From Bifidobacterium breve (lineage in GTDB: Bacteria > Actinomycetota > Actinomycetes > Nanopelagicales > Nanopelagicaceae): a stretch of 64,000 bases of DNA. The DNA is taken from contig CAMCVO010000004.1 of assembly GCA_945881945.1 (NCBI GenBank), positions 1-64,000 on the forward strand, read 5' to 3'. Below are positions 2,228 to 22,629 of the stretch, piece by piece. A program made the position numbers and the translations under genes. The first letter of the stretch is position 1. Every line of letters begins with the position of its first letter. The notes beneath the pieces were generated by a model. The model was given only the letters and a program-made list of their open reading frames with translations. It was not told the origin of the DNA and made no database searches.

Positions 2228-2992
2228 TTATCTGATGTAAGTTGCACCGTTTACATCAAAAGTTGCACCAGTCATCTGTATATTTTTTCCTGATGCCAAA
2301 AATGCGACGAGGTTTGCTATCTCCAGCGGTGGTACCCATTCGCCCATTGCTAATGTCGCAGTTACAGCATCTTCTCCCCCTAAAGATTTTGCTGAAGCTT
2401 CTGACATTGCCGTTCTTACAATTCCTGGTGCAATTAAATAGGCATAAATACCATTTTTTGCATAAGCTCTGGCTACCGTTTTAATCAGTGCTGGCAATAC
2501 CGATTTAGATGCGGCATAGGCTCCTAAATTTGGATTACCAGAGCCACGTTGGGCAGCCCAGCTAGAAAGCCCAATTATATTTCCGCCGCCGTTTTCCAAA
2601 AAATGCAGAACTGCTTCACGAATTAAAAATGCGGGGGCAGTGGCATTGACTGCGATCGATTCATGCCAAGATTTGCTCCATTTTTCAAATGAATCTGTAA
2701 TTGCAGCTTCTGGCATTATCGCCGCATTAAGAATAAGCACATCTATTTTTCCTTGCCATTGCAGGGCTGAGCTCCAGAGTTTCTGGTAGCCATTCACATC
2801 AGATAAGTCGGCGCTAATCAGGATTTTTTGATGATCTGGGATCTGCGCAGTCGCTTTTTTTGCACCTTCTAAATCTTTCCCATAGTGAGCAATCACATTT
2901 GCGCCAGAATTTCCCAAGACGCGGGCTATTTCACTACCAATTCCCTTTGAAGTGCCGGTAACAAGAATCGTTTTACCTGATAAATCTTCCAT
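2228..2992 (-). CDS. SDR-family NAD(P)-dependent oxidoreductase
   Basis: A 254-residue classical short-chain dehydrogenase. The Rossmann motif TGTSKGIG is at residues 12-19, NAA at about 89-91, serines at 143-144, and the catalytic Y159-x3-K163 in AYAASK. An AAGGAG Shine-Dalgarno sits five bases upstream of the ATG. It is a clear paralogue of the SDR at 14038-14805: both start with a Leu-Ser-Gly-Lys-Thr-Ile-Leu-Val-Thr-Gly stretch, share a QRGS region before the catalytic Tyr, and end in DVNGA(T/S)YIR. It converges on the cupin gene and is divergent from the Fe-S/FAD dehydrogenase gene. Substrate unknown; oxidation of an alcohol or reduction of a ketone in the neighbouring pathway is likely. 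Confidence 0.88.
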   Translation of the reverse strand: MEDLSGKTILVTGTSKGIGSEIARVLGNSGANVIAHYGKDLEGAKKATAQIPDHQKILISADLSDVNGYQKLWSSALQWQGKIDVLILNAAIMPEAAITDSFEKWSKSWHESIAVNATAPAFLIREAVLHFLENGGGNIIGLSSWAAQRGSGNPNLGAYAASKSVLPALIKTVARAYAKNGIYAYLIAPGIVRTAMSEASAKSLGGEDAVTATLAMGEWVPPLEIANLVAFLASGKNIQMTGATFDVNGATYIR

Positions 2993-3093
2993 CTAAACTC
3001 CTTCAAGGCAATGGCATGCAAGTAGCAGTATCCTATGCTAACGAGAAATAAGGCATATAATTTTAACTTGAAAATAGCTATAGGAGTTTGAAT

Positions 3094-4851
3094 TTGAGAG
3101 TTTTAGCAAGAGGTATTACCAAGTATGGGAGAACTATCTCATTCAAATTTAATGGGCGGTCATTATCAGGGGTTGAGGGTGATTCAGTTGCATCAGCATT
3201 AATCAATAATGGCGTGCATGGTTTTCGAGGCACAGAGGCTGATGAAGAGCGTGGTTTGTTTTGTGGTATGGGCGTATGCAACGAGTGCTTAATACAAATT
3301 GATGGCGAGCAAGGATTGTTAGCATGCATGACCTCACTTGAGGATCAAATGGATATTATGGTTCAGCCACAACACAAATCCAAGCCAGATTTTGAAGTGG
3401 ATGTTCAAATAAACTCTCTACCTGAAGTGGAGTTAAAGACTCAGGTATTGGTCATTGGTGCCGGCCCAGCCGGTATGACCATCGCATCAAAATTAGCTAA
3501 GTATGGGGTTGATGTTTTGGTTATTGATGAAAGAAAAATATCGGGTGGTCAGTACTTTAAGCAGCCAGCACAAAAGTTTGAAATAGTTGAGAATAAACTT
3601 GATTTTCAATATCGCAAGGGCAGAGCACTAATTAATGATCTAGACAAAAGTGGTGCCAAGATTATGCATGGTGTGAAAATTTGGGCAGCAGATGGATCTG
3701 AAAAATTCTTTGCCTATGATGATTGCAATAAATATTTTATTTCAACCAATAAAGTGGTAATAGCAACTGGTGCTTTTGAAAAAGGATTGGCATTTCCTGG
3801 CTGGACTCTTCCTGGCGTAATGACAACCGGGGCTGGGCAATCCCTATTGCGCAGTTATCAGGTTGCCCCCGGGGAGGCAATTGCTATCGCCGGAAATGGG
3901 CCGTTAAATTTGCAGCTTGCTGCCGAATTATTAAGGGCTGGAGCTAAGGTAAAAGTTGTCGCAGAAACAGCTAGTTTGTTTAATTTTAAAAACGTAATTC
4001 GTGGGTTTTTTCTATTTATTAGCTCACCCAGAACAGCCTTAAACGGATTGGGATATGTGGCCACTATTTTCAAGTCAGGAACTAAAATACTAACCGGACA
4101 GGTAATAATCGAAGCATATGGTGCAGAAAAGGTTCAAGGGGCAAAGTTTGCCCCAATTGATAGCCAAGGTAAACCTAAATCTGATCCTAAAAATATTTCA
4201 AATTTTCAAGTTGATTCAGTAACTATTGGTTATGGATTTTCACCTTCTAACGAAATAGCCAGAATTTTAGATTGTCACCACAACATAGATGAAAAGTGGG
4301 GGTACTTAACCACTACGCGGGATTTGATGGGTACTACAAATTTGCCAAATGTTTGGGTGATCGGTGACGGCTCGGGAATAAACGGAGCTCAAGTGGCAAA
4401 ATCTAACGCTAGTTTATTAGCACTTGAAATGTTGAGGCTGGCAAAAATTAAAAAGGGATTACTTCTAAAACTACAAATGCAGTTGGCAACCTTTACATTG
4501 AAAAACCAATTATTTTTCCAAAAAATACTTTGGAAAGTATTTAATGCCCCTTTGATAGTGGATCAGGTTGCCACCCCAGAAACATACATCTGTCGTTGTC
4601 TTAGCATTTCTTTAACCCAGGCAAAATCTGCTATTTCAGAACACACCTTAAGTGCCGGGGCAGCCAAACGGATTAATCGAGTAGGAATGGGGCGCTGTCA
4701 AGGTCGTTATTGCTCTCCGGTCATCCAAAAATTGATTTCAGAAAATACAGGGTCAGAGTTAAACCAATTTTCGGGATTTGCACCACAAGTCCCGATTAAG
4801 CCCGTTCCAATTGGAGTAATCGCTCAGCTAGATCCAGAAGCGATTAAATAG
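3094..4851 (+). CDS. Fused [2Fe-2S]/FAD oxidoreductase (HcnA-HcnB / sarcosine-opine dehydrogenase type)
   Basis: A 585-residue fusion. Residues 1-95 are a Fer2_4-type [2Fe-2S] domain with cysteines C57, C62, C65 and C78. Residues 115-480 are a FAD/NAD-type disulfide-reductase fold with GAGPAG at 122-127 and a second GNGPLN dinucleotide site. The C-terminus is a BFD-like [2Fe-2S] domain with C500, C502, C535 and C540. This order resembles HcnA joined to HcnB, and the alpha subunits of opine, sarcosine and D-hydroxyproline dehydrogenases. I choose the TTG at 3094, since AGGAG at 3082-3086 is seven bases away; a TTG at 3088 is too close. No DAO-type partner gene is adjacent; such subunits are found at 19477 and 24074. 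It is first gene of the run to 11.5 kb. Confidence 0.85.
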   Translation: MRVLARGITKYGRTISFKFNGRSLSGVEGDSVASALINNGVHGFRGTEADEERGLFCGMGVCNECLIQIDGEQGLLACMTSLEDQMDIMVQPQHKSKPDFEVDVQINSLPEVELKTQVLVIGAGPAGMTIASKLAKYGVDVLVIDERKISGGQYFKQPAQKFEIVENKLDFQYRKGRALINDLDKSGAKIMHGVKIWAADGSEKFFAYDDCNKYFISTNKVVIATGAFEKGLAFPGWTLPGVMTTGAGQSLLRSYQVAPGEAIAIAGNGPLNLQLAAELLRAGAKVKVVAETASLFNFKNVIRGFFLFISSPRTALNGLGYVATIFKSGTKILTGQVIIEAYGAEKVQGAKFAPIDSQGKPKSDPKNISNFQVDSVTIGYGFSPSNEIARILDCHHNIDEKWGYLTTTRDLMGTTNLPNVWVIGDGSGINGAQVAKSNASLLALEMLRLAKIKKGLLLKLQMQLATFTLKNQLFFQKILWKVFNAPLIVDQVATPETYICRCLSISLTQAKSAISEHTLSAGAAKRINRVGMGRCQGRYCSPVIQKLISENTGSELNQFSGFAPQVPIKPVPIGVIAQLDPEAIK

Positions 4852-4961
4852 ATGAGTTTCTTCAATTAGAGCCAGAAGCTTGCTGGTGGATTCTTCGCTT
4901 TAAACAGGATAAGTTTTGATATGGTTAGAGCGCTTTGCAAACATTCAAGAATGAGGGTTCG

Positions 4962-6350
4962 ATGAGTTTATCTTCAAGTAGTTCTTCAGTTGAAAAAGAT
5001 AAGAAGTATTTTTTTCATCCCTTTACTGCGCTTAAGGCCCATGAGTCTGATGGTGGAAAAATTATTGTTGAAGGTAAAGGTTCGACCTTAACAGACTCTC
5101 AAGGAAATAAAATTTTAGACGGCATGGCTGGTCTTTGGTGCGTGAATCTTGGATATGGAAATACAGAGCTTGCTGGTGCAATTGATGCCCAGGTTAAAAA
5201 GCTTTCTTACTATCACAGCTTCTCCGGCATGGGTACTGATCTTGCAGGACAACTCTCGGAACAAATCATCAATATGTGTCCAGTTCCTATGTCAAAAGTG
5301 TTTTTTGGAAACAGTGGTTCAGATGCAAATGACACAAATGTAAAAATTGTTTGGTTCTATAACAACGCAATTGGACGCCCAAATAAAAAGAAAATTATTT
5401 CAAGAACCCGTGGTTATCATGGCGTGACAATTATGTCGGCAGGGCTTACTGGTTTAAAAAACTTACATGATGGTTTTGATTTGCCTCTGTCCACAGTTCG
5501 CCATGTGCGTCCACCACACAGGTTATGGGAAAAAGCACCAGGTGCTACCGATGCGCAATTTGCCCAAACCCTTGCTGATGAGCTGGAGACATTAATCCTT
5601 GCAGAGGGCCCCGATACAGTTGCAGCTTTTATTGCAGAACCAATTCAAGCAGCCGGTGGCGTGATCGTGCCTCCAAATGAGTATTTCCCAGCAATCACAA
5701 AAGTTTTGAAAAAGTATGACATTTTACTTATTGCAGATGAAGTAGTGACTGGTTTTGGCCGCTTGGGTCAGATGTTTGGAACAGAGACCTTTGCAATGCA
5801 GCCTGACATAATCACAATTGCGAAAGGTTTAACTTCAGCTTACATACCGCTTTCAGGTTCAGTTGTTTCGGAAAAAATCTGGTCAGTTCTTAGAGATGGC
5901 AGTGTTCAATACGGAGCCTTTGGCCATGGCTACACATATTCAGCTCATCCTGTAGCTGCTGCTTGTGCGTTGAAGAATTTAGAGATCATTAAGCGCGATA
6001 AATTAACTGAAACAACCACCAAGCAAGGAAAATTACTGCACGAGCTGCTGCAAAACTACTTTGCGAATCATCCACTAGTTGGAGAAATTCGTGGACAAGG
6101 TTTAATTGGCGCCATTGAATTAGTGGCGAATAAAGAAACTCCTAAACCATTTGATCCAGCGCTGAAAGTAGCTCCTCAGATGGCTAGAAGGTCTATGGAA
6201 TTAGGGGTCTTAACTAGAGCATTGCCTGCATCAGATACTCTGTCTTTCTCTCCCCCATTCATTGTCACTGATAGTGAGTTAGAGGTAATTGTGAAAACTG
6301 TTCATCAGGCAGTAAATGAAATAGGTAAAGAGCTGGGTTTATATAGTTAA
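4962..6350 (+). CDS. Class III omega-aminotransferase (beta-alanine/pyruvate type)
   Basis: A 462-residue PLP enzyme of aminotransferase class III. It has the phosphate-binding NSGSDAND segment (117-124), DEVVTGFGR (259-267) and the Schiff-base lysine K288 in TIAKGL. Family members move amino groups from omega-amino acids, amines or taurine-like compounds to pyruvate or 2-oxoglutarate. The ATG at 4962 is preceded by GAGGG four bases away; an upstream TTG at 4935 lacks such a site. The stop overlaps the next start (TAATG at 6348-6352). The operon context suggests it removes or supplies an amino group for the GcvP-like step downstream. Donor substrate not determinable. Confidence 0.9.
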   Translation: MSLSSSSSSVEKDKKYFFHPFTALKAHESDGGKIIVEGKGSTLTDSQGNKILDGMAGLWCVNLGYGNTELAGAIDAQVKKLSYYHSFSGMGTDLAGQLSEQIINMCPVPMSKVFFGNSGSDANDTNVKIVWFYNNAIGRPNKKKIISRTRGYHGVTIMSAGLTGLKNLHDGFDLPLSTVRHVRPPHRLWEKAPGATDAQFAQTLADELETLILAEGPDTVAAFIAEPIQAAGGVIVPPNEYFPAITKVLKKYDILLIADEVVTGFGRLGQMFGTETFAMQPDIITIAKGLTSAYIPLSGSVVSEKIWSVLRDGSVQYGAFGHGYTYSAHPVAAACALKNLEIIKRDKLTETTTKQGKLLHELLQNYFANHPLVGEIRGQGLIGAIELVANKETPKPFDPALKVAPQMARRSMELGVLTRALPASDTLSFSPPFIVTDSELEVIVKTVHQAVNEIGKELGLYS

Positions 6351-7537
6351 TGGCCTCCAACTTCAAGCTGGGTTTAATCATAAACCCAGTTGCAGGTATG
6401 GGTGGAAAAGTTGGATTGCACGGGACAGACAATGATTTAGCACAAATCGCAATTTCGCATGGTGCAGAGAAAATTTCTTTTGATCGAGCTCAGCGAACTA
6501 TCTCTATGTTGGTGACTGAGCAGGACAATATTGACTTTTACTCACCCGGTGGAGTTATGGGTGGTGAATTACTTGAGATGCTGGGAATTAACTTTTTTGA
6601 AATTGATTTAAATGAAAACTTGTATTTCAACAAAACAAATCACCTTCACACGCAAAATGCTGCATTAAAAATGTTAGATCATAAGGTTGATGTAATAATT
6701 TTTGCAGGTGGTGATGGAACTGCTCGTGATGTATTTACAGCAGTTGGCAGCAAGGTTCCTATTTTGGGTATTCCTTCTGGCGTTAAAATGCGCAGCGGAG
6801 TTTTTGCGAATTACCCAGAGCATGCGGCTATGATAATTCTAGATGCACTTGCGGCAGCGCAAGATGGGAAAAATTTTGAACTTACAAATGCTGATGTTTT
6901 GGACGCTTCGATAGATTCTAGAGAATACTCAAACTCTCAATTTTTCGGCAGCGCCAGAACTTTTAAGGCACCGAATAGAATCACTAATCCAAAGGTAAAC
7001 TCCCATTCAAATCAAGATGTAGCTCTTATGGAGCTAGCAGCCCACCTATCAAAAAATCTTGAGCCAGATCGTTTATATCTATTTGGACCTGGGCAGAGTG
7101 CCAAAGCTATATTGAGTAATTTAGGCTCCTCGTTTGCAAATCAAGATCAATCCGGAGTTGATGCCTACTATGCAGGTGAAATTATCGGTCAGGACTTAAG
7201 CGAAAAGGCGATACTTGATTTACTCAGCCGATTTGATGATAAACGCAAATTTCAAGCACCCTTGCTATACCTTGGCGTGATCGGTGGGCAAGGGTTTCTG
7301 CTGGGCCGGGGAAATCAACAACTTAGCTATGAGGTAATCTCCAAGATTGGCGTTGGAAACATATATGTACTGGCCAACTCTGGGAAAATTAACCAAATCG
7401 TCCCATCAAGGCTCTATGTTGATTTTGGAGACGCAGTTCACTTTAAAATTTTCTCCGATTATATAAAGGTGCATGTGGCTATAGACCGAACCTTGGTCTG
7501 TAAAGTATTGTCCTCAGGTGTTCAATCTAATCAGTAA
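6350..7537 (+). CDS. ATP-NAD kinase-like / AcoX-like protein
   Basis: A 395-residue protein with the diacylglycerol/NAD-kinase superfamily core. It opens with LGLIINPVAGMGGKVGL, and the nucleotide-binding GGDGTARD is at residues 120-127, followed by a GIPSGVKM loop. Its length and layout match the AcoX/ATP-NAD-kinase-like group rather than housekeeping NAD kinase (about 300 aa). AcoX proteins sit in catabolic operons and their substrate is not settled. The start overlaps the aminotransferase stop by one base, so the two are translationally coupled. It may phosphorylate a pathway metabolite or a cofactor. Confidence 0.78.
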   Translation: MASNFKLGLIINPVAGMGGKVGLHGTDNDLAQIAISHGAEKISFDRAQRTISMLVTEQDNIDFYSPGGVMGGELLEMLGINFFEIDLNENLYFNKTNHLHTQNAALKMLDHKVDVIIFAGGDGTARDVFTAVGSKVPILGIPSGVKMRSGVFANYPEHAAMIILDALAAAQDGKNFELTNADVLDASIDSREYSNSQFFGSARTFKAPNRITNPKVNSHSNQDVALMELAAHLSKNLEPDRLYLFGPGQSAKAILSNLGSSFANQDQSGVDAYYAGEIIGQDLSEKAILDLLSRFDDKRKFQAPLLYLGVIGGQGFLLGRGNQQLSYEVISKIGVGNIYVLANSGKINQIVPSRLYVDFGDAVHFKIFSDYIKVHVAIDRTLVCKVLSSGVQSNQ

Positions 7538-7584: not shown

Positions 7585-9003
7585 ATGAGTAAGGATGGCA
7601 ATGCTTTGCCTACTCCTCATCCATTTATGGCCAACACTGCACCGGGCAGTTTTCAAGAGATGCTCCGGGTAGCAAAGGTAAATGACATTGAAGAATTGTT
7701 TGAGCAAATTCCACAGGATCATAAATTTACTGGTGAATGGAATTTTGATTCAGCTATTCCATCAGAGGCTTCACTATATAAACATTTGACAGGTATTCTG
7801 CGCAAAAATAGATCAGGCGAAGAAAATTTAAACTTTTTAGGAGCTGGTTGTTGGCAGCATTATGTGCCAGCAATCTGTGATGAAATGGTAACTAGAACAG
7901 AATTTCTTACTCCAGTATGGGGAACTCCATCTTCTGACCATGGAAGAAATCAAGTTTGGTTTGAATTTCAAAGTCAAATAGGTGAATTAGTTGGTATGGA
8001 GTTTGTGGGATTACCTTTGTACAGTTTTGGAACTGCCGGTGGCCATGCAATTAGAATGGCAGCAAGAATTACTGGTCGCAATAAAGTAATTGTTCCAAGA
8101 TCATTAGATCCAGAAAGATTAGCTGTATTTAAAACTTATTGTGGATTTAAGGAATTATCAGGTTACATAGAAATAGTTTATGTAAACCTTGATCCTAAAA
8201 CTGGTCGCATTGATTTGATGGATATGAAATCAAAGCTCTCTTCAGATGTGGCTGCTGTGTACTTTGATAACCCTAACTATTTAGGTGTAATCGAATCAGA
8301 GGCTAAAGAATTAGTCGCTTTAGCTAAAACAGTTGGGGCTGAAGTAATTGTGGGTGTGGATCCAATTTCTCTTGGAGTTCTTACGCCACCTAGTGAGTAC
8401 GGCGCTGACATTATTGTTGGAACTACCCAACCACTAGGTGTTCACATGAATGCCGGTGGTGGAGCGGGTGGCTTTATCGCAACGCGCGATGATGAGAAAT
8501 ACGCACGTGAATTTCCAACCCTTCAAGTAAGTCTTACCGGAACTAGCGTTCCTGGCGAAATGGCATTTGGCCTGACCTTATTTGAGCAATCTTCATATGG
8601 ATCACGAGAACATGGAAAAGATTGGACTGGCAACTCTGTTTATCTCTGGACAGTTGCAAATGCTACGTATATGTCATTGCTGGGGCCAACTGGATTTAAA
8701 GAGATCGGTAATACGATTTTACAAAGAAGTCATTATGCAGCTAAGCAGCTTGCAGACATTTCAGGTATCAAAATTACCTGGGGTTCCGGATATTTTAAAG
8801 AGTTTGTGGTTAATTTTGATGGAACTAAAAAATCAGTAGCAACAATAAATAAAGCCCTACTTGAAAAGAATATTTTTGGTGGAAAGGATTTGTCTTTAGA
8901 CTTTCCAGAACTTGGTCAATCGGCTTTGTATTGTGTTACCGAGATTCATACCTTAGAAGATATACAAAACTTAGTTAGCGCGATTAAAGAGGTAATAAAA
9001 TGA
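7585..9003 (+). CDS. Divergent GcvPA-like subunit (glycine decarboxylase P-protein, subunit 1)
   Basis: A 472-residue protein with the PLP-dependent fold-type I layout of GcvPA. The FLGAG-x-W-x-HYVPA motif (84-95) and the FEFQSQIGELVGM helix (126-138) align with canonical GcvPA. The normally conserved YTPYQPEISQG stretch is replaced by WGTPSSDHGR (112-121), and YDGAT by YSFGTAG. Canonical GcvPA/GcvPB form the glycine-decarboxylating P-protein, which loads an aminomethyl group on lipoyl-GcvH. Neither GcvH nor GcvT is in this operon. A GGGGGA Shine-Dalgarno precedes the ATG. The altered active-site loop suggests a different amino-acid substrate or a stand-alone decarboxylase. It overlaps the next gene by 4 bp (ATGA). 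Confidence 0.82.
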   Translation: MSKDGNALPTPHPFMANTAPGSFQEMLRVAKVNDIEELFEQIPQDHKFTGEWNFDSAIPSEASLYKHLTGILRKNRSGEENLNFLGAGCWQHYVPAICDEMVTRTEFLTPVWGTPSSDHGRNQVWFEFQSQIGELVGMEFVGLPLYSFGTAGGHAIRMAARITGRNKVIVPRSLDPERLAVFKTYCGFKELSGYIEIVYVNLDPKTGRIDLMDMKSKLSSDVAAVYFDNPNYLGVIESEAKELVALAKTVGAEVIVGVDPISLGVLTPPSEYGADIIVGTTQPLGVHMNAGGGAGGFIATRDDEKYAREFPTLQVSLTGTSVPGEMAFGLTLFEQSSYGSREHGKDWTGNSVYLWTVANATYMSLLGPTGFKEIGNTILQRSHYAAKQLADISGIKITWGSGYFKEFVVNFDGTKKSVATINKALLEKNIFGGKDLSLDFPELGQSALYCVTEIHTLEDIQNLVSAIKEVIK

Positions 9004-10556
9004 TTAAATCTAAGATTCGCAAATATCATGCTCCGGTTTGGGATGAGCCTTTGGTCATGCAAATGGGTAAAGCTGGAAGGCGTGGGGCAATTGCTCCAGT
9101 AACTGAAGGTGCTATCGCCTCCGCTGTTGGTCCAGCCATAGATTTGATTCCTGCATCAATGCGCAGATTGAATGTATTGGATTTACCAGAGCTTTCTGAG
9201 TTTGAAGTACAACGCCATTATTTACATCTATCCCAACAAACCTTAGGAATGATGGGAATTAGCTTATTTGGTACCTGCACTATGAAATACAATCCAAGAG
9301 TTAATGAAAGAATTGTTTATCAACCTTTTGTCTCTGAGGTTCACCCTCATCAAGATCCTTCAACTATGCAAGGAATACTTGAGGTTGTAAACCGATTTGA
9401 TCATTTGTTACGAAAATTATCAGGCCTAGACAAGTTTGTTTTTCAAGCAGGTGGCGGAGCCGATGCAGCTTATACGCAAGCTTGTATTACCCGTGCTTAC
9501 CATGCCTCAAGAGGTGAACTTGCCCAACGTAATGAAATAATTACTACCGCTCAAGCACATCCATGTAATCCTGCAACTGCAGCTGCTGCAGGTTTTAAAA
9601 TTATTACATTAGCTCTTGAAGATGATGGCTATCCTTCAGTTGAATCTTTGCGATCTGTAGTCTCTGAAAGGACTGCAGCATTAATGGTGAACAACCCAGA
9701 TGACATAGGTATTTACAATCCAAAGATTAAAGAATGGGTTGATATTGTCCATGAAGCTGGAGGTTTGTGTTTTTACGATCACGCCAATTTCAATGGGGTA
9801 ATGACTCGAATTCGTGCTGCAGATATCGGTTTTGACGCATGTATGTACATGCTTCATAAAACATTTGGTGGTCCAAAGGGTGGTGGTGGCCCAGCTGTTG
9901 GTGCATACGGGTGTAATGAAAAGTTAATTCCATTCCTACCAGGCCCAATTGTTGAGACCAATAAAGATGGTTCCTTTTATCTTAGAGATTCAAATCCTAA
10001 TGGCGTAGCAAGGATCAGAGAGTTTCTTGGCAATATTCCAACTGTTATTCGGGCATATTCTTGGACCAGATCTATGGGCATCGAAGGATTACGAGATGCT
10101 GCAAATATTTCTGTTTTAGCTAATAACTACATGGAAAAAAGATTATTAGAAATTCCAGGAGTGACTAAGGGTATGCCTGATGTAAAGGGGCGTAGGCTGG
10201 AAATGACAAGATATAGCCTAGGTGAGTTAACTGATCAAACGGGCGTATCATGTATTGACATTCAAAATCGAATGACCGATTTTGGTGTCGACGCCTACTG
10301 GTTAAGTCATGAGCCATGGTTTATCCCGGAGCCATTCACGCCCGAAGCTGGTGAGTTGTGGTCTGTAGAAGACATCGATTACTGGATTGATGTCTTGGAA
10401 ACCGTTTGTACTGAAGCAAGAACTAATCCAGAGATTGTAAAAACAGCGCCACATAATCAAGTAGTTCATAAACAAAATTCAACAAATTTAAGTGACCCAC
10501 AAAAATGGGCTACAACTTGGCGTGCATACAAGCGTAAGTATGCAGTCACAGATTAA
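9000..10556 (+). CDS. Divergent GcvPB-like subunit (PLP-binding P-protein, subunit 2)
   Basis: A 518-residue partner of the preceding gene, overlapping it by ATGA. It keeps the CTMKYNP motif (93-99) and the PLP lysine K287 in LHKTF, followed by a glycine-rich GGGGP loop. Around the active site it departs from canonical GcvPB: HKTF(S/T)xPHGGGG is HKTFGGPKGGGG, and AHGTNPAS is AHPCNPAT (186-192). The fold and the PLP site are intact, so an active decarboxylase is expected, but the substrate may not be glycine. The housekeeping glycine cleavage genes are not in this window. Function as a heterodimer with the 7585-9003 product is inferred from pairing and coupling. Confidence 0.82.
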   Translation: MIKSKIRKYHAPVWDEPLVMQMGKAGRRGAIAPVTEGAIASAVGPAIDLIPASMRRLNVLDLPELSEFEVQRHYLHLSQQTLGMMGISLFGTCTMKYNPRVNERIVYQPFVSEVHPHQDPSTMQGILEVVNRFDHLLRKLSGLDKFVFQAGGGADAAYTQACITRAYHASRGELAQRNEIITTAQAHPCNPATAAAAGFKIITLALEDDGYPSVESLRSVVSERTAALMVNNPDDIGIYNPKIKEWVDIVHEAGGLCFYDHANFNGVMTRIRAADIGFDACMYMLHKTFGGPKGGGGPAVGAYGCNEKLIPFLPGPIVETNKDGSFYLRDSNPNGVARIREFLGNIPTVIRAYSWTRSMGIEGLRDAANISVLANNYMEKRLLEIPGVTKGMPDVKGRRLEMTRYSLGELTDQTGVSCIDIQNRMTDFGVDAYWLSHEPWFIPEPFTPEAGELWSVEDIDYWIDVLETVCTEARTNPEIVKTAPHNQVVHKQNSTNLSDPQKWATTWRAYKRKYAVTD

Positions 10557-10573: not shown

Positions 10574-11515
10574 TTGTCTGAGTATAAATTTGCTGTCGTA
10601 GGGGCGGGCAGTATTGGAGTTGGATGGTCGATTGTTTTTGCGCGTGCAGGGTATAGCGTTTGTGTTTTTGACATAAAACCTGAGATCTTAGATCGGTTTT
10701 GGGTTCAAATAAATAGCAAGTTAAAACTGCTGGCAGAGAATGACTTATTGCAGGAGGATTTGGAAGCTATAAGTAAGAGAATTACAACAACTACAGAGTT
10801 GTCACAGGCGTTAACTGGTGCAGATTACGTGCAAGAATGTGGCCCAGAAGAATTACAGATCAAGCAGAATATTTATAAAAAATTAGAAGAACTTTCTAGT
10901 CCAAATGCAATACTAGCTAGTTCTTCATCAGCATTAACTACAACGCAGTTTGCCTCAGATCTTCCGACTAAACATAGGTGCTTGGTCGTTCACCCCGGTA
11001 ATCCACCATATTTACTTGCCATAGCAGAGGTGGTCCCTGCATCATTTACTTCAAATCATTGCGTGGAGGAAACATTTAAGATTCTAAGATCTGTAGAAAT
11101 GGCCCCCATACTTGTATCTCATGAGCCAAAAGGCTTTGTATTCAATCGAATACAGGGTGCGGTTTTGCGTGAGGCTTACTCACTTGTGCGTGACGGTGTT
11201 ATCTCCCCTCAAGATTTAGATTTAATAGTTACTGAGGGTTTAGGTAAACGTTGGTCCATCGTTGGACCCTTTGCGACTGCAGCACTTAATGTGCAAGGTG
11301 GCATAAAAGCCCATGCGGCACGGATGGGACAAAGTTATTTTGAGATGGGGCAAAGCAGAGGTCAAAATGAACCTTGGAGTGCAGAGCTAATTGAAAAAGT
11401 ATCTAAAGATATTGAGATAAAACTCAATAATTCAGATTGGCTAATCAATGTTGAAAAAAGAGATTTGGCGTTGATGAAGATAACTAAGCTATTACTGGAA
11501 ATCATCAAGCCATAA
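10574..11515 (+). CDS. 3-hydroxyacyl-CoA dehydrogenase-like enzyme (lambda-crystallin / L-gulonate dehydrogenase type)
   Basis: A 313-residue NAD-dependent dehydrogenase. An N-terminal Rossmann site GAGSIG (10-15) is followed by the SSSSAL segment and HPGNPP, with the probable catalytic His at residue 140. The HPxNPP pattern and single-domain length fit the lambda-crystallin/L-gulonate 3-dehydrogenase/carnitine dehydrogenase group more than fatty-acid beta-oxidation enzymes. The start is a TTG, 17 bases after the GcvPB-like stop, so it probably ends the plus-strand operon. It converges on the CoA-transferase genes six bases later. A hydroxy acid or hydroxyacyl-CoA intermediate is the likely substrate. 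Confidence 0.82.
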   Translation: MSEYKFAVVGAGSIGVGWSIVFARAGYSVCVFDIKPEILDRFWVQINSKLKLLAENDLLQEDLEAISKRITTTTELSQALTGADYVQECGPEELQIKQNIYKKLEELSSPNAILASSSSALTTTQFASDLPTKHRCLVVHPGNPPYLLAIAEVVPASFTSNHCVEETFKILRSVEMAPILVSHEPKGFVFNRIQGAVLREAYSLVRDGVISPQDLDLIVTEGLGKRWSIVGPFATAALNVQGGIKAHAARMGQSYFEMGQSRGQNEPWSAELIEKVSKDIEIKLNNSDWLINVEKRDLALMKITKLLLEIIKP

Positions 11516-11521: not shown

Positions 11522-12301
11522 TTATCTGTCAGAAGTTTTAATCAGTTCGCGTATCTTGGTGAGCTCCACCGGCTTTGGTTGTTCAGTAATCTTCATTGAT
11601 TGTGAAAATTTCAATTCCCAACCGGTATTTTCAATAACCTGTTCTTTACTCACGCCGGGATGAAGGTGAGTCATTGTTAGTTCTAGCGTTTTAGGATCTG
11701 GCTCAAGAATCCCCAAATTAGTTATCACTTTACTTGGCCCACCACCACGTAAGCCATATTTTTCTCGAGAGCCCACTCCATCACCAAATCCCATCGAAGT
11801 CACGAAATCAACTTGGTTTACAAAAGCTCGTTTTGTCTGATTAATTATTATAATTACCTCTTTACAAGCCCCTGCAATTTCAGTTGCACCTCCAGCACCT
11901 GGCAGTCTGACTTTTGGCGCTTGGTATGTCTGTCCAATATAAGTGGTATTGATATTTGCATATCTATCAATTTGAGCTGCGCCAAGAAAACCAACATCAA
12001 TTCGTCCTGACTGAAGCCAATAATTGAAAATTTCTGGCATACCAACAACTGTTAGTGCTTCATTGGCAAGTTCTCCATCTCCAATTGAAAGTGGCAATTT
12101 TTGGGGGTTTGTATTGACTGTTCCAGATTCATAAATTAGGAATAAGTTAGGCGCGTGCATAGATTTAGCAAGAATTGCAGCCGTACTTGGGATACCAATT
12201 CCAACAAAGCAAGTATCAGTGTTCTTAAGTATTTTTGCAGCGGTAATTGTCATGATTTCGTCATCACTCCAGGTTAAATCACTATCGAGTTTGCTACTCA
12301 T
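11522..12301 (-). CDS. CoA-transferase beta subunit (GctB/IpdB-like)
   Basis: A 259-residue family I CoA-transferase subunit. The catalytic-glutamate motif is present in LIYESG (E58), which in family I enzymes forms the glutamyl-CoA thioester, so transferase chemistry is likely retained. Other conserved pieces are GGGGATEIA-like (PGAGGATEIAG) and an EPDPKTLELT segment. The length and sequence resemble glutaconate CoA-transferase B and the actinobacterial IpdB group. It overlaps the alpha subunit gene by ATGA (12298-12301). It probably activates or deactivates an acid product of the neighbouring pathway; the acid is unknown. Confidence 0.87.
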   Translation of the reverse strand: MSSKLDSDLTWSDDEIMTITAAKILKNTDTCFVGIGIPSTAAILAKSMHAPNLFLIYESGTVNTNPQKLPLSIGDGELANEALTVVGMPEIFNYWLQSGRIDVGFLGAAQIDRYANINTTYIGQTYQAPKVRLPGAGGATEIAGACKEVIIIINQTKRAFVNQVDFVTSMGFGDGVGSREKYGLRGGGPSKVITNLGILEPDPKTLELTMTHLHPGVSKEQVIENTGWELKFSQSMKITEQPKPVELTKIRELIKTSDR

Positions 12302-13128
12302 GACTTTGGCCCCTTTGCATTAGATTCTTTATGAATAACATCATCTAACCAAGTCAAGAATGTATCTCTCTCCTTTGCAATTTTGTCCCAGGCGATATAT
12401 GCACTGTTATCCCGCTCGTAATAACCCGAAGCATAAGAAGGCCAAGCGCCCCTGGGTGCTAATGAGATTACATCAATTTGAATATTAGGAATGATGATTG
12501 AATTAAATTTGGGCGTGAATTCTTCTACAACTTCTTCAACTGTTACTAAAACTTTTTTCGCAGCAAACACTGCTTCTCGAGCTACCCCTGTTATCCCCCA
12601 TAACATTACATTTCCAGCCTTATCAGCTTGCTGGGCATGGAGAACTGTTACATCAGGATTAATTGCCGATACCGCGGTTAAAACCTCGTCACTGAAAGGA
12701 GAATTTATCTCCACTACCCCGGAGGTCTGATCAAAAAGATCTGAACCTCGGTACCCTCGCATCACCGTAAAGGGCAATCCTGATGCGCCTGCCACATATT
12801 TATTTGTTAGTCCAGCGTGGGTATGTTCCTCGATTTCCAATTTTTGCGGCCAACTGTTCTGATAAGCATCGCGAAATCGATGTAATGAACCAACGCCAGG
12901 ATTTCCTCCCCAAGAAAAGATCAATTTTTTTATGCATCCTGCACCAATCATTTGGTCATAGATCAAATCTGGAGTCAACCTGATCGCCGTAAGGTCCTTT
13001 ATCTTCTGACGAATGATTTCATGGCCAGCAGCAAATGGAATTAAGTGAGTGAAACCCTCCATGGCAATGGTTTCACCATCTTTCACAAACTCATTTATGG
13101 CACTAGATAAATCTGCAAATTTCACCAT
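12298..13128 (-). CDS. CoA-transferase alpha subunit (GctA/IpdA-like)
   Basis: A 276-residue family I CoA-transferase subunit with the N-terminal DGETIAMEGFTHLIPFAAGHEIIRQ-type opening and a WGGNPGVGS loop. The PDVTVLHAQQADKAGN segment is typical of the alpha subunits. It is the first gene of a two-gene minus-strand operon with the beta subunit. The 158-bp region upstream is shared with the divergent SDR gene at 13287 and holds a perfect 10-bp palindrome. Canonical partners are glutaconyl-, 3-oxoacyl- or ring-cleavage-product CoA esters; none can be chosen from sequence alone. Confidence 0.87.
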   Translation of the reverse strand: MVKFADLSSAINEFVKDGETIAMEGFTHLIPFAAGHEIIRQKIKDLTAIRLTPDLIYDQMIGAGCIKKLIFSWGGNPGVGSLHRFRDAYQNSWPQKLEIEEHTHAGLTNKYVAGASGLPFTVMRGYRGSDLFDQTSGVVEINSPFSDEVLTAVSAINPDVTVLHAQQADKAGNVMLWGITGVAREAVFAAKKVLVTVEEVVEEFTPKFNSIIIPNIQIDVISLAPRGAWPSYASGYYERDNSAYIAWDKIAKERDTFLTWLDDVIHKESNAKGPKS

Positions 13129-13286: not shown

Positions 13287-14036
13287 ATGATGCTACCTAA
13301 TATGTCAGGCAAAATTGCAGTTGTGACTGGCGGATCCTCTGGCATCGGAGCAGCGATCGTCAATCGATTTCTTGAAAAAGGTGCGACGGTAATCTCGTTA
13401 GATTTGGTCAAACCAACTAATCAAAATCAGCAGGCGATACATTTTGATTGTGATTTGACTCATGAAGAATCTGTTTCACTGGCTTTTACAGATATTAAAA
13501 AGAATTATGGCTCGGTAGACATAATCTGTGCCAATGCCGGAATTGTTCCTGCTTGGAGTCGAATTACAGATACAGAATTTTCTGATTGGAAAAAAGTTAT
13601 AGATGTAAATGTGAATTCACTTTTTTTAACAATATCAAAGGGTGCTGAATTGTTGAAGAGTGGCACAGGAACCGTAGTAATTACTGGATCGTTAAACTCT
13701 TGGAAAGGTGATGCCAATATAGCTTCTTATGTTGCGAGCAAACATGCAGCGCTTGGGCTTTTGAAATCTGCGGCATTAGATTTAGGCCGAGAAGGTATCA
13801 GAGTAAATGGAGTAGCACCTGGGCCTATCGCAACACAGGCGCTAATATCAAGAGTGAAAAGTAGAATAAAAAAGGATGATAAAGATGTTGAAAGTTTTAT
13901 TCAAAAGTTTGCGGAAGCAACTGCCTTGAAAAGAATTGCAACTATTGATGAGGTGGTAAATACAATAGACTTTCTAGCAAACGAACAGTCCTCAGGAATA
14001 ACTGGGCAGTTAATAGCAGTAGATTGCGGTGTATAA
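13287..14036 (+). CDS. SDR-family NAD(P)-dependent oxidoreductase
   Basis: A 249-residue classical SDR. It has TGGSSGIG at residues 14-21, CANAG at about 81-85, catalytic Ser135, Tyr148 and Lys152 (YVASK), and an NGVAPGPI segment after the active site. GAGGAG lies seven bases before the ATG at 13287. It is first in a two-gene plus-strand operon with the SDR at 14038. The C-terminus (GITGQLIAVDCGV) is of the usual 3-oxoacyl-ACP-reductase-like type. Substrate unknown; the divergent CoA-transferase genes suggest a hydroxy or keto acid in the same pathway. Confidence 0.88.
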   Translation: MMLPNMSGKIAVVTGGSSGIGAAIVNRFLEKGATVISLDLVKPTNQNQQAIHFDCDLTHEESVSLAFTDIKKNYGSVDIICANAGIVPAWSRITDTEFSDWKKVIDVNVNSLFLTISKGAELLKSGTGTVVITGSLNSWKGDANIASYVASKHAALGLLKSAALDLGREGIRVNGVAPGPIATQALISRVKSRIKKDDKDVESFIQKFAEATALKRIATIDEVVNTIDFLANEQSSGITGQLIAVDCGV

Positions 14037-14037
14037 A

Positions 14038-14805
14038 ATGAGTTACGACTTGTCAGGTAAAACCATCCTGGTTACCGGCGCTTCTCGTGGTATCGGCGCT
14101 GCTATTGCAAAATCATGTGCCCTTGCCGGTGCTCATGTAATCTCACACTTCAACTCACATGCAGATGGTGCCACTGAGAATATGAAGGATATTCCCGATT
14201 CACACAAGAGTTTTATAATGCAGAATCTATCTGAACCTGGTTCGGGTAGACAGCTCTGGCACAAGGCAATCAAAGCATCTAAAAAAATCGATATCTTTAT
14301 CAATAATGCGGCAGTTAATATCGAAACGCCATTTGATTCAGCAGTTGATGAATGGGACAAAGGGTGGTTAGAAACTTTTCAGGTTAATGTCTATGAACCG
14401 GCAAATATTATGAAGGAAGCCCTATCTCACTTCCAAACACAGGGTGCAGGTGTAATTATTAGTATGTCGAGTTGGTCTGGACAACGAGGTTCAGCCTTGC
14501 CAACTTTGCCAGCATACGCAGCTTCAAAAGCAGCAGTGAAAGCTTTAACCCAAACTATTGCCAAGAATTATGCTAAAGATGGCGTACTTGCATATGTTAT
14601 TTCTCCTGGAATTGTAAAAACTAGAATGTCGGATTTGGCTGCTGTTGTGCGCGGTGGTGAGGAATCGATGAAATCTCAGTTAGTTATGGGAGAACTGGTT
14701 AAACCAAGTGAATTAGGAGAGCTAGTTGTATTTCTCTCTTCTGGAGCCTGTCGACATCTAACCGGCTCGACAATTGATGTAAATGGCGCCTCTTATATTC
14801 GTTAA
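14038..14805 (+). CDS. SDR-family NAD(P)-dependent oxidoreductase
   Basis: A 255-residue classical SDR with TGASRGIG (13-20), NNAA (89-92), Ser144/145, Tyr160 and Lys164. I choose the ATG at 14038, one base after the TAA of the upstream SDR; an in-frame GTG at 14029 would overlap that gene and has no better site. It is paralogous to the SDR at 2228-2992 (same N-terminus, QRGS loop and DVNGA(S/T)YIR end), which suggests an ancient duplication within this metabolic region. Two SDRs in tandem suggest consecutive or alternative redox steps. Confidence 0.88.
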   Translation: MSYDLSGKTILVTGASRGIGAAIAKSCALAGAHVISHFNSHADGATENMKDIPDSHKSFIMQNLSEPGSGRQLWHKAIKASKKIDIFINNAAVNIETPFDSAVDEWDKGWLETFQVNVYEPANIMKEALSHFQTQGAGVIISMSSWSGQRGSALPTLPAYAASKAAVKALTQTIAKNYAKDGVLAYVISPGIVKTRMSDLAAVVRGGEESMKSQLVMGELVKPSELGELVVFLSSGACRHLTGSTIDVNGASYIR

Positions 14806-15518: not shown

Positions 15519-16280
15519 ATGACGCAATCCCAAGTACTCATGGAGCTAACTGGCGTTCGAAAAACTTTTGGAAAAGTAGAAGTGCTTCACCATATTGATT
15601 TGAAAATTAATAAGGGAAGCCATGCAGTTATTTTTGGTCCATCAGGTTCGGGTAAGTCAACTTTACTTCGGTGTATGAATTTACTGGAAGAGCCAGATGA
15701 AGGCTCAATAAAATTCATGCAAGATGAATTTGGTCCTGGTGACAAAACCAATAAGCAGGTCAATCGAAAGAAGCCAATTGAATTAAGACGAAAAGTGGGA
15801 ATGGTATTTCAACAGTTTAATTTATTTCCACACTTATCAGCACTTGATAATCTTGCATTGCCATATCGCTCGGTTAGAGGGGGCTCTGTAAAAGATGCAC
15901 AAGAGCGTGCTGCACATGAGCTCAAGAAGGTTGGCTTACTAAAATTAGCAGCAAATTATCCTTCAGAGCTATCAGGTGGGCAACAGCAAAGAGTTGCAAT
16001 AGCAAGAGCGTTAAGCCTTGATCCTGAATTAATGCTATTTGATGAACCTACTTCAGCACTAGATCCTGAATTAGTTGGTGAAGTTCTTGGAGTTATGCGT
16101 GACCTAGCTGAAAGTGGCATGACCATGGTTGTCGTGACTCATGAAATGAATTTTGCTCGTGAAATTGGTGATTTGAATGTATTCATGGAGGATGGCAATG
16201 TTGTGGCAACAGGTGGTGCGGACTTCTTTGAGAGCTGCACGAACGAGCGTGCTAAACAATTTATAGGATCGGTGCTGTAA
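15519..16280 (+). CDS. Amino-acid ABC transporter, ATP-binding protein (GlnQ/HisP type)
   Basis: A 253-residue ABC ATPase. Walker A GPSGSGKST is at residues 40-48, the Q-loop in VFQQFNLFPHL, signature LSGGQQQR (151-158), Walker B LMLFDEPTSAL, and the His switch in VVTHEM. The HisP/GlnQ pattern is typical of polar-amino-acid importers. GGAG precedes the ATG by five bases, and a small hairpin (15482-15497) lies in the 5' region. The stop overlaps the permease start (TAATG). With the next two genes it forms a complete importer that feeds the catabolic genes around it. Confidence 0.93.
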   Translation: MTQSQVLMELTGVRKTFGKVEVLHHIDLKINKGSHAVIFGPSGSGKSTLLRCMNLLEEPDEGSIKFMQDEFGPGDKTNKQVNRKKPIELRRKVGMVFQQFNLFPHLSALDNLALPYRSVRGGSVKDAQERAAHELKKVGLLKLAANYPSELSGGQQQRVAIARALSLDPELMLFDEPTSALDPELVGEVLGVMRDLAESGMTMVVVTHEMNFAREIGDLNVFMEDGNVVATGGADFFESCTNERAKQFIGSVL

Positions 16281-17032
16281 TGGATGAGGGTGGCGTAGCT
16301 CCAATAAATTTCATGTGGCACCTGGTTTGGGATTACAAAGCCGAACTTTTCAAGGGGCTGCTGACCGCAGTAGGTGTATCTATTTGCGCCCTAATAATCT
16401 CGCTGGCCGTTGGCATGCTCTTTGCACTAGCAAGAATGAGTAGATACAAAATTGTCTCTGGATTTGCAACCGCTTATGTAAATATATTCCGAGGAATACC
16501 TGCCCTAGTGAGTGTAATCTGGGTTTACTTTGGCTGGTCTCTACTGTTTGGTCACAATTTCACCGTATTCCAAGCAGGCGTTATAGCTTTAACTCTTTTG
16601 TACTCATCATTTTTTTGTGAAATTTTTCGTTCTGCATTACAAGCAATCCCTAAGGGTCAAAGAGAAGCAGGAATGGCTCTTGGTATGACACGGGGTAAAA
16701 TCTTTAAGTCAATTTTGGCACCACAATCGATCAAAATTGCTATCCCTAATATTGGCAGCATGTATATCGGAATGATCAAAGATACTTCTACCTTTGCAAT
16801 TATTGGCATGGTTGAGGTTGTACGAGTTACTCAAAACTTAAATTCAACATACTTCCAACCATTTGTTCTTTATACGGCTGCAGCCGGCCTTTATGTAGCG
16901 ATAGCCTTTTTAATTGATTTTATATTCAGGAATGTTGAATTAAATATGGCATATCCACCACGGGGCCGCATATCTAAGTTTCTCAATCGCAAAAAGAAAG
17001 CCTCTGTCGAGAAAATTATTTCTTCGACGTGA
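16280..17032 (+). CDS. Amino-acid ABC transporter, permease (HisM/GlnP type)
   Basis: A 250-residue membrane protein of the His/Glu/Gln permease family with about five transmembrane segments. The EAA-type coupling loop is visible as QREAGMALGMTRGKIFKSILAPQ. Start is coupled to the ATPase gene by a one-base overlap. Only one permease gene is present, so the channel is probably a homodimer. The substrate-binding protein follows 55 bases later. Confidence 0.92.
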   Translation: MDEGGVAPINFMWHLVWDYKAELFKGLLTAVGVSICALIISLAVGMLFALARMSRYKIVSGFATAYVNIFRGIPALVSVIWVYFGWSLLFGHNFTVFQAGVIALTLLYSSFFCEIFRSALQAIPKGQREAGMALGMTRGKIFKSILAPQSIKIAIPNIGSMYIGMIKDTSTFAIIGMVEVVRVTQNLNSTYFQPFVLYTAAAGLYVAIAFLIDFIFRNVELNMAYPPRGRISKFLNRKKKASVEKIISST

Positions 17033-17087
17033 GTGTTTCTAAATTGTGATGAGAAAAGCAAAATATCTCTACCTAGGAAAGGGAAAA

Positions 17088-17909
17088 ATGCGTAAAAAAA
17101 TCGCTATAACCGCCGTGGCTTCACTTCTCGCATCAGCTGTTCTATTCACTGGTGCGTCGTCATCGGCTAATGCAGCAACAAAAAACTTGAATCTTGTTAA
17201 AAAGGGTTCTTTGGTTGTTGGTATGACTTTGCAATTTAAGCCTCAAATGTACTTAGACGCAGCTGGCAAACCAGCTGGCTATGACTATGAGTTATTGAAG
17301 CAACTTGCCAAAGACCTTAAGTTAAAGCTTGAGATTAAGAACATGGATTTTGCTGGATTGATTCCTGGATTAGTTTCCAGACAATTTGATCTAGTCTCTG
17401 TTGGGCTAACAAAAAATCCTGATAGAGAAAAATCAATTCTTTATGTTCGCGAATACATGCCTTACACCACCGTATTAGCAGCTCCTTACGGAGTAACTAA
17501 AGGTTCAACTAAAGATGCATGGAATGCTCCAGGAATCAAGATTACAGCACTTCAAGGAGCTGCTGCATCTAGAATCGTAAAGGCTGATTTCCCTAAGGCA
17601 ACTCTTGTTGAATTCCCACAACAAAATGATGCGTTTCTTGAGGTTGCCTCTCTACGTGCTAATGCAATAGTTGTTGAAGAGAACTTGCTTAACCAATTCA
17701 GCAAAACTAATCCATTCACATTACAAAAAATCAATTTGCCAGCACCATTAAGCCAGGCTTATGGTCAGTGGACTGTTCAACTAGGAAATACAGCTCTTCA
17801 AACTGAGCTTAAGAACTGGTTGTGCGGAAAGCAAAAGAGCAAATTCCTTGCTAATACGTTTAAAAAGCAAATGGGTTACACACAACCAGCACTACCACCC
17901 TGCGTTTAA
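17088..17909 (+). CDS. Amino-acid ABC transporter, substrate-binding protein
   Basis: A 273-residue SBP_bac_3 family protein. The ATG at 17088 is preceded by AGGAAAGGG and starts directly with a signal peptide (KK, hydrophobic AITAVASLLASAVLF, Ala-Asn-Ala cleavage region). An in-frame ATG at 17046 gives a poorer signal and lacks a site. The mature part has the GYDYELLKQLAKDL segment that follows the ligand cleft strand. There is no lipobox cysteine, so it may be free or membrane-held by the uncleaved signal. A strong terminator follows. Polar amino acids or related compounds are the likely ligands. Confidence 0.9.
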   Translation: MRKKIAITAVASLLASAVLFTGASSSANAATKNLNLVKKGSLVVGMTLQFKPQMYLDAAGKPAGYDYELLKQLAKDLKLKLEIKNMDFAGLIPGLVSRQFDLVSVGLTKNPDREKSILYVREYMPYTTVLAAPYGVTKGSTKDAWNAPGIKITALQGAAASRIVKADFPKATLVEFPQQNDAFLEVASLRANAIVVEENLLNQFSKTNPFTLQKINLPAPLSQAYGQWTVQLGNTALQTELKNWLCGKQKSKFLANTFKKQMGYTQPALPPCV

Positions 17910-17962: not shown

Positions 17963-18003
17963 AAAGAGATGGCGATCATAAACATGATTGCCATCTCTTT
18001 TAA
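17963..18003 (+). terminator. Rho-independent terminator after the amino-acid ABC operon
   Basis: An 11-bp stem AAAGAGATGGC (17963-17973) with GCCATCTCTTT (17990-18000) is extended inward by ATCAT/ATGAT around the loop AAAC, and is followed by T residues. An in-frame ATG at 17988 lies inside this hairpin, which argues against that start for the next gene. Confidence 0.85.
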
Positions 18004-18041
18004 CTTATAAAAGTCAGATACATCTGAGAGGGAAATCTTTA

Positions 18042-19475: not shown

Positions 19476-19476
19476 A

Positions 19477-20685
19477 ATGACATCATCTTTTTTGCCTGGC
19501 TATCTGGATCGAAAAGAGAATTTGGCTGATCTGCCAAAGGTGACTGATGTTGCAATTATTGGAGGTGGTTTACTAGGGACCGCCTTGGCATACTATTTAT
19601 CAAAATTTGGTATAGAAGTAACATTGTTAGAGAGAAGTGATTTAAATAGAGAAGCCTCTGGTACAAATGCAGGAAGTTTCCACTTTCAAATAGCACTCCA
19701 TCAATTAACAAAGAACCTTACCGAGAGTGAAGAAAAACGACTCTCAGATGAGGTGAAATTACAGCTGGACGCAGCAATTTTATGGGACACCCTGGAAAAA
19801 GAGTTAGATGCCGATCTTGGGGTTCATTTCACGGGTGGATTTATGGTTGCTGAGACTGAGGAGGAGTTGAAGGTTCTACGGGATAAGCAATCAATCGAGA
19901 ATAAAGCTGGTCTAGAGACTCATGTTTTAACTGGCGATGAAATGCGAAGCTTTGCGCCATATTTGGCTCCAGATCTCTCTGGGATCGCATATTGCCCTCG
20001 GGAAGGTCATGCAAATCCACTACTGGTTGGTCCTACTTACGCATTTCGTGCCATGGAGTTAGGTGCAAAAATTAGAACTAATTGTGAAGTATTAAAGATC
20101 GAACCTCTTGATAATGCCTCACCGTATAGATTTAAATTGAAAACAAGTAGAGGAGATATTAGTTGTAATCGATTAGTTAATGCTGGAGGTGCTTGGACAG
20201 CTGAACTATCGGCTCAATTAGGAATTAAACACCCAATGGGATTAAGTGGTCTTCATGTAAACGTGACTGAGCCTCATGAGTTCTTTTTAAAGTCTATGGT
20301 TCAGCATATTGGTCGAAGATTAACTTTGAAGCAAACACCAAACAACACTTTTATAATTGGTGGTGGCTGGCCATCACGTACTGAAAATTATCCCCGTCGA
20401 TACTCAAATTACTGGGCAAGTGCTGCCGGGAATGTGGCAGTGGCGGTTCGGGTACTGCCAATTTTAAAAGATGTTCGATTACTGCGTGTATGGTCAGGAG
20501 TATGGGCTTATACAAAAGATTTTAAGCCAATTCTTGGTGAGTCTGAAAAAGTCCCTGGTTACCACGTTGCCATGGTTCCTACTGGATTTACCCTAGGGCC
20601 CATGGTCGCACGAACTCTAGCGGAGTATATGCACAGTCCAGCAAATAAAAATATTATACCCAAAGAGTTTAGTGTAGATAGATAG
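19477..20685 (+). CDS. DAO-family FAD oxidoreductase (HcnC / D-amino-acid dehydrogenase-like catalytic subunit)
   Basis: A 402-residue DAO-fold flavoenzyme with the FAD site GGGLLG (29-34) and the C-terminal GxxP-like segment GYHVAMVPTGFTLGP. Members oxidise the C-N bond of D-amino acids, sarcosine, glycine, opines or D-hydroxyproline. The ATG at 19477 starts one base after the preceding stop; an in-frame ATG at 19465 is an alternative. Its place right behind an HcnB-like gene fits the catalytic subunit of an HcnABC/LhpBEF-type complex. The DapA-family lyase next door could process the resulting imine or cyclic imino acid. Confidence 0.87.
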   Translation: MTSSFLPGYLDRKENLADLPKVTDVAIIGGGLLGTALAYYLSKFGIEVTLLERSDLNREASGTNAGSFHFQIALHQLTKNLTESEEKRLSDEVKLQLDAAILWDTLEKELDADLGVHFTGGFMVAETEEELKVLRDKQSIENKAGLETHVLTGDEMRSFAPYLAPDLSGIAYCPREGHANPLLVGPTYAFRAMELGAKIRTNCEVLKIEPLDNASPYRFKLKTSRGDISCNRLVNAGGAWTAELSAQLGIKHPMGLSGLHVNVTEPHEFFLKSMVQHIGRRLTLKQTPNNTFIIGGGWPSRTENYPRRYSNYWASAAGNVAVAVRVLPILKDVRLLRVWSGVWAYTKDFKPILGESEKVPGYHVAMVPTGFTLGPMVARTLAEYMHSPANKNIIPKEFSVDR

Positions 20686-20708
20686 GTTAAGTATGATTGG
20701 ATTTAGAT

Positions 20709-22627: not shown

Positions 22628-22629
22628 AT

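Follow-up and report, generated by a model that had tools for sequence, protein, structure and literature searches.

A diverged split P-protein pair beside an NAD-kinase-family gene, probably acting outside the glycine cleavage system

Does a gene pair that databases name glycine dehydrogenase belong to the glycine cleavage system (GCS)? The question is raised by contig CAMCVO010000004.1 of assembly GCA_945881945.1, filed under Bifidobacterium breve and placed by GTDB in the Nanopelagicaceae. The window, here the whole stretch analysed, covers its positions 1 to 64,000 (64,000 nucleotides, nt). The host genome is a metagenome-assembled genome (MAG) of 1.1 Mb, 86% complete and in 25 contigs. 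Two genes encode a GcvPA-like and a GcvPB-like subunit, which we call PA' and PB'; AX denotes their neighbour of the NAD-kinase family. Judging from sequence, PA' and PB' probably form an alpha-beta enzyme dependent on pyridoxal 5'-phosphate (PLP) that stands outside the GCS. Their database name notwithstanding, they would constitute a separate, widespread enzyme branch that probably breaks down a different amino acid. The pair lies as follows.

7585..9003, + strand: PA', GcvPA-like subunit of 472 aa (NCBIfam PRK00451 at 428 bits, cut-off 364; Pfam GDC-P), in a clade outside the sampled canonical GcvPA
9000..10556, + strand: PB', GcvPB-like, PLP-binding subunit of 518 aa (NCBIfam PRK04366 at 481.8 bits, cut-off 441; Foldseek matches to GcvPB)

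Both open reading frames (ORFs) are intact and overlap by 4 nt. A first-pass annotation of this DNA had called them a split P-protein pair, and the Pfam and NCBIfam assignments (GDC-P, GcvPA, GcvPB) agree. The best Foldseek matches of PB' are the GcvPB structures 9a73_B and 1wyt_B, so that sequence family and fold both place the pair among P-proteins. Because the NCBIfam scores exceed the GcvPA and GcvPB cut-offs, automatic pipelines give the pair the name glycine dehydrogenase, and its genes are labelled gcvPA and gcvPB in those annotated plasmid records that we examined. For these two reasons, metabolic models probably credit the pair with glycine cleavage when it carries out a different reaction. 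PB' shares about 35% identity with canonical GcvPB and 52-90% with its own relatives, which occur in Actinomycetota, in Alpha-, Beta- and Gammaproteobacteria and on one haloarchaeal plasmid.

In a tree of concatenated PA and PB sequences, PA'/PB' occupies one side of a branch with a long stem and a support of 100 in the Shimodaira-Hasegawa-like approximate likelihood ratio test (SH-aLRT); the tree comes from a quick search without bootstrap, with 12 canonical rows only, some of them on long branches. In that sample the pair does not cluster with canonical P-proteins and forms a clade outside them, the outcome of a phylogeny that the first-pass annotation had proposed as a check. That annotation had also suggested looking for a second gcvP. 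The same genome indeed encodes a canonical GcvP, fused and 947 aa long, with gcvH 2.4 kb from its gene and gcvT elsewhere. The combination that would have spoken against a separate function, a pair inside canonical GcvP with no other gcvP in the genome, is thus not what we found. A second, high-scoring canonical P-protein is likewise present in 21 of 21 further PA'/PB' genomes checked, and PA'/PB' is therefore normally an additional paralogue.

The replaced and retained positions that set the pair apart are these.

7918..7947, + strand: PA' residues 112-121, WGTPSSDHGR, in place of the YTPYQPEISQG loop that holds human Y161/Y164 (alignments; PMC7259800)
8578..8631, + strand: PA' residues 332-349, LFEQSSYGSREHGKDWTG, in place of LQTREQHIRRDKATSNIC (human Q366-K376, the modelled H-protein interface; alignments; PMC7259800)
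9555..9578, + strand: PB' residues 186-193, AHPCNPAT (canonical AHG..), with His187 retained and G188 changed to P (alignment)
9858..9860, + strand: PB' Lys287, the PLP Schiff-base lysine in MLHKTF (aligned to the PLP lysine of GLDC; 89/89)
9876..9878, + strand: PB' Lys293, where PHGGGG has its conserved His (Lys in 88/89 clade members, His in all 12 canonical sequences)

Residues were counted on an alignment that set 89 sequences of PB' and 87 of PA' against 12 canonical ones, and human numbering was verified on an alignment with the human structure. The scaffold is kept: FLGAG..HYVPA, CTMKYNP and LHKTF are all retained. In PB', K287 and D260, the Asp to the pyridine nitrogen, are both found in 89/89 sequences, and His187 and His286 are retained as well.

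Around this scaffold, several segments are exchanged. Y161 and Y164 are listed among the active-site residues of human GLDC (PMC7259800); the YTPYQPE loop with these glycine-pocket tyrosines gives way, essentially clade-wide, to a WG-.PSSD.GR loop of the (V/S)WG-TPSSDHGR type. A second swap in PA', absent from the first-pass annotation, turns REQHIRR.KATSNIC into.QSSYG.RE.GKDWTG, again essentially throughout the clade. It removes the region of Q366, R373 and K376, which a docking model places at the interface of human GLDC with the H-protein (PMC7259800). Within PA', D118, D346 and G349 are invariant (87/87) and W347 nearly so (86/87).

In PB', the changes S92T, G188P, H282M, N284M, H293K, Y355W, H401E, E402M and T434W are essentially clade-wide, with T92, M284, W355, E401 and M402 each in 89/89 sequences. 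The Asn of NLHK forms a hydrogen bond with the PLP phosphate in mouse GLDC (PMC7850488); its equivalent, N284, is the residue that has become Met in every PB'. All motifs named in the first-pass annotation are present: WGTPSSDHGR for the YTPYQPEISQG type, PKGGGG for PHGGGG and AHPCNPAT for AHGTNPAS. The new Lys293 could, together with the fixed segments SD.GR and KDWTG, hold an additional anionic group. Altogether, the motif swaps hold in essentially all of the ~88 relatives from Actinomycetota, Proteobacteria and haloarchaea. Such clade-wide conservation with fixed residues rules out a degenerate pseudogene pair.

The distribution of H-protein bears on the same question. We sought GCV_H in 49 genomes carrying PA'/PB' and found a match above the cut-off in 47, that of G065 being only marginal (~22 bits) and lipoyl-domain-like. 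A bona fide H-protein is lacking by this search in three of the 49 genomes, G065, G077 and G089, and present in most others; these three have no GDC-P match other than PA'. The PA'/PB' locus of G065, an Acidimicrobiia MAG, lies on a 3.0 Mb chromosome contig. In G065 and G089, most GCV_T matches are to long fused proteins that are probably dimethylglycine/sarcosine-type dehydrogenases.

Immediately upstream of the pair in the window stands AX.

6350..7537, + strand: AX, NAD-kinase/DAGK-superfamily protein with GGDGT and G.P.GVKM.S motifs (Pfam PF01513), overlapping the preceding ORF by 1 nt

AX directly adjoins PA'-PB' in 80 of 88 loci, 56 times upstream on the same strand and 24 times divergently. 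Among the remaining eight, it lies a few kb off in four and is absent from the stretch in four, one of them at a contig end. It carries the NAD-kinase domain with the GGDG motif that marks the AcoX/NAD-kinase superfamily, and the motifs GGDGT (G120-T124) and G.P.GVKM.S (G144-M147) are invariant. AX diverges faster than its partners: the median identity among distant loci is 34%, against 59% for PA' and 64% for PB'. Its AlphaFold model reaches a predicted local distance difference test score (pLDDT) of 87 and returns only weak fold matches, the best being the DgkB kinase. AX is unlikely to be the housekeeping NAD kinase, as a second member of the NAD-kinase family occurs besides it in the five genomes checked. 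Members of the AX family without PA'/PB' nearby are found in Pseudoalteromonas and Aeromonas, and the wider family is for that reason not specific to the PA'/PB' system. On a Pseudoalteromonas plasmid (L126, 7436-9128), the gene for the elongation factor P hydroxylase EpmC is overlapped by the AX-family gene that comes directly after it.

The three genes sit in a catabolic island that extends to ~26 kb of the window.

2228..2992, - strand: SDR1, island dehydrogenase (at least 50% identity in 22/77 distant loci)
3088..4851, + strand: FS, fused Fer2/FAD/BFD flavoprotein of the SoxA/opine-oxidase alpha type (profile matches; tblastn)
4935..6350, + strand: AT, class III aminotransferase whose nearest solved relatives are named 4-aminobutyrate transaminase (at least 50% identity in 32/77 distant loci)
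10574..11515, + strand: HD, dehydrogenase of the lambda-crystallin/3-hydroxyacyl-CoA dehydrogenase type (NCBIfam PRK06129 above cut-off; nearest structures lambda-crystallin; at least 40% identity in 35/77 distant loci)
11522..13128, - strand: CTB and CTA, two CoA-transferase subunits, CTA nearest to glutaconate CoA-transferase (also in four Acidimicrobiia loci and the haloarchaeal plasmid)
13287..14805, + strand: SDR2 and SDR3
15519..17909, + strand: ABC transporter of amino-acid type, with ATPase, permease and solute-binding protein (from sequence; kept beside PA'-PB' in relatives)
17988..22944, strand not assigned: module 1, with FAD-BFD flavoprotein, SoxB/ThiO-like DAO, DapA-family enzyme, two-domain VOC-like protein (a sequence reading) and Fer2
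22954..26222, strand not assigned: module 2, with oxidoreductase of the old yellow enzyme (OYE) type, SoxB-like DAO and DapA-family enzyme (DHDPS2, ~60% identity in 27 distant loci)

Conservation was assessed by tblastn of each window gene up to ~35 kb against 88 loci, 77 of them distant. SDR1, FS, the aminotransferase (~58% identity), AX, PA', PB' and HD are common beyond close kin, and so are the two SoxB-like DAO/DapA-family modules, Fer2, OYE, the CoA-transferase subunits and the amino-acid ABC transporter. The island is conserved across Actinomycetota and Alphaproteobacteria, and most lineages have it around AX and the pair. On the haloarchaeal plasmid, PA'/PB' lies ~55 kb from a cluster of AX, a class III aminotransferase, a DapA-family enzyme, SDRs and a CoA-transferase pair. 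The neighbours that the first-pass annotation had read from the letters alone (aminotransferase, NAD-kinase-like protein, Fer2/FAD/BFD flavoprotein, lambda-crystallin-like dehydrogenase) have held up, and the set whose conservation it had suggested testing recurs across distant loci.

Further neighbours appear in individual relatives. In Chromatocurvus, a dehydrogenase beside the aminotransferase exceeds the cut-off of the succinate-semialdehyde dehydrogenase (SSADH) subfamily, and a primary-amine oxidase lies nearby in a Gemmobacter relative. Together with the aminotransferase resembling 4-aminobutyrate (GABA) transaminase, these enzymes fit an amine product. A Mesorhizobium locus (L080, 13090-14514) has a diaminopimelate-decarboxylase-like gene between PA'-PB' and the aminotransferase. 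One of the relatives closest to the window locus is a Nanopelagicales MAG, and MAG contig CAMAYZ010000007.1 carries a locus ~86-90% identical to the window. Another genome holds two PA'-PB' loci (L034 and L035; 82% and 80% identical to the window), each with AX and HD; at one of the two, the aminotransferase is truncated by the contig end. Upstream of the island (window 1016-2215), a homocysteine S-methyltransferase gene is followed by one for a cupin-type protein, with homologues nearly absent in related loci.

The clade falls into two subtypes. Subtype 1, with loops of the WG-T.SSD.GR type, comprises 78 loci, and at least one of five island genes is nearby in 71 of them. Subtype 2 comprises nine loci, from Rhodococcus, Streptomyces, Pseudomonas, Sphingomonas, Gemmobacter and Tamaricihabitans; it has loops of the VFG-EPSSDHGR type, LPVRSWG and, in the glycine-rich loop of PB', an inserted Val (PKSGVGG). 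The tested island genes are nearby in none of its nine loci, and the neighbours in several are an acyl-CoA ligase, an SDR or an APC permease. This match of subtype and operon type is consistent with the loops determining the substrate. A further split GcvP paralogue, the sister pair P'' (L030, on the 3284 bp contig G054:C2), occurs in another genome of the window's family, with the intermediate motifs TGRSYEDHGR and HACGGPG. P'' is 44% identical to PB' and shares the DHGR and EW.G changes; it differs in that its PA loop still has YT and its PB the His, as read from a short contig.

What, then, does the pair do? We favour, at about even chances, a diverged P-protein branch working as an H-protein-independent PLP enzyme with an alpha-amino acid, though not glycine, as its substrate, and most likely as a decarboxylase that yields an amine. 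The first-pass annotation had likewise proposed a P-protein paralogue outside the GCS for a substrate other than glycine, and the separate clade, the lost pocket and H-interface residues, the second gcvP/H/T set and the three H-less MAGs support it. In the pathway that we envisage, the sarcosine-oxidase-type flavoproteins and DapA-family enzymes of the island would set free an amino acid intermediate, which PA'/PB' would decarboxylate. The product could then be used by the GABA-type aminotransferase, with the SSADH-type dehydrogenase in some relatives, and by the dehydrogenase and CoA-transferase genes. AX is probably needed for activity or acts to modify the substrate. One might even speculate on a route through a phosphorylated amino acid, with a kinase followed by a decarboxylase as in PduX/CobD.

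Several points weigh against this reading. We infer decarboxylation of another amino acid, a plausible activity, from the chemistry of the family and from the neighbouring genes, and the pair could carry out some other PLP reaction. The structure model of PB' is moderate (pLDDT 77.7) and was folded without PA'. The H-protein interface is taken from a docking model in the literature. H-protein genes in most hosts make use of H-protein possible there and, because all three H-less genomes are MAGs, their lack of it is strong evidence without being final. Lastly, the correlation of subtype with context is partly phylogenetic, subtype and phylogeny not being independent.

Changes of reaction type come easily to fold type I PLP enzymes, and the alternative that survives best, unlikely as we hold it, is another PLP reaction: retro-aldol cleavage, racemisation, elimination from a hydroxy-amino acid phosphorylated by AX, or oxidative deamination, for example. 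We know of no P-protein homologue with another reaction. The Met that replaces the phosphate-contacting Asn in PB' and the linkage of an ATP-dependent kinase fold to the pair would suit such a switch; the GABA-type aminotransferase, SSADH-type dehydrogenase and amine oxidase of the neighbourhoods suit an amine product instead.

PA'/PB' might also remain lipoyl-dependent and hand the product of its new amino acid to the H-protein of the GCS or to an E2-type lipoyl domain, which we think improbable. The analogy is with the acetoin dehydrogenase complex, in which a two-subunit E1 likewise delivers to lipoate: AX, like AcoX (PMC10943186), is linked to an enzyme of two subunits that in its canonical form passes its product to lipoate, and most host genomes carry an H-protein. 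Against this stand the swapped motif at the modelled P-H interface and the lack of a true H-protein in three MAGs; among the neighbourhoods that were annotated, we noticed no gene for a lipoyl protein, and AX has been likened to AcoX by description only.

Finally, an ordinary second glycine dehydrogenase using the H- and T-proteins of the genome is very improbable and rejected on residues, clade and co-occurrence: it would explain the NCBIfam equivalog cut-offs passed for both subunits and the H-protein of most hosts, but not the lost pocket and interface motifs, the separate clade, the pair in three MAGs without any true H-protein, or the linkage to a catabolic island instead of gcvT/gcvH.

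Returning to the H-independent enzyme that we favour, a bolder and rather doubtful extension is that AX-PA'-PB' constitutes a three-gene module of a new type. A lipoate-independent P-protein would need an ATP-dependent partner of the NAD-kinase family and would stand at the centre of a pathway, so far undescribed, for N-substituted amino acids, common to bacteria and haloarchaea, with two subtypes acting on different substrates. The first-pass annotation could match the pathway to none described, and the limited collection of literature that we searched contains neither such a pathway nor a description of the PA'/PB' system. We weighed the catabolism of ectoine, hydroxyproline, pantothenate, carnitine and mycosporine as models; to our knowledge, none accounts for a P-protein homologue. 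If PA'/PB' is an H-independent decarboxylase, it would be a natural system for asking what binds P-protein to lipoate, and its constant neighbour AX offers a way into the long-unexplained AcoX-type kinases.

Among known systems, the island resembles the modules of hydroxyproline/sarcosine-type imino acid oxidation in bringing Fer2, FAD-BFD, DAO and DapA-family genes together; in those modules we know of no P-protein homologue. AX recalls the AcoX of acetoin catabolism, by description, as an NAD-kinase-like protein beside a two-subunit enzyme, and differs in its neighbours, PA'/PB' instead of acoABC (PMC10943186). AcoX has been reported without acetoin, NAD or pyruvate kinase activity, and one AcoX-type kinase is required if acetoin dehydrogenase is to be active in a heterologous host (PMC10943186). 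The Pseudomonas and Burkholderiaceae genomes searched yielded no AcoX sequence; they have only AX and one other member of the NAD-kinase family. The closest comparison is with canonical GcvPA/GcvPB. Both systems consist of two overlapping genes and share the fold, the PLP lysine, the Asp to the pyridine nitrogen and the His of AH(G/P). In contrast, PA'/PB' is changed at the glycine-pocket loop, at the modelled H-interface motif, beside the glycine-rich loop (His to Lys) and at the PLP-phosphate contact (Asn to Met), and it is partnered by AX and unlinked to gcvT and gcvH.

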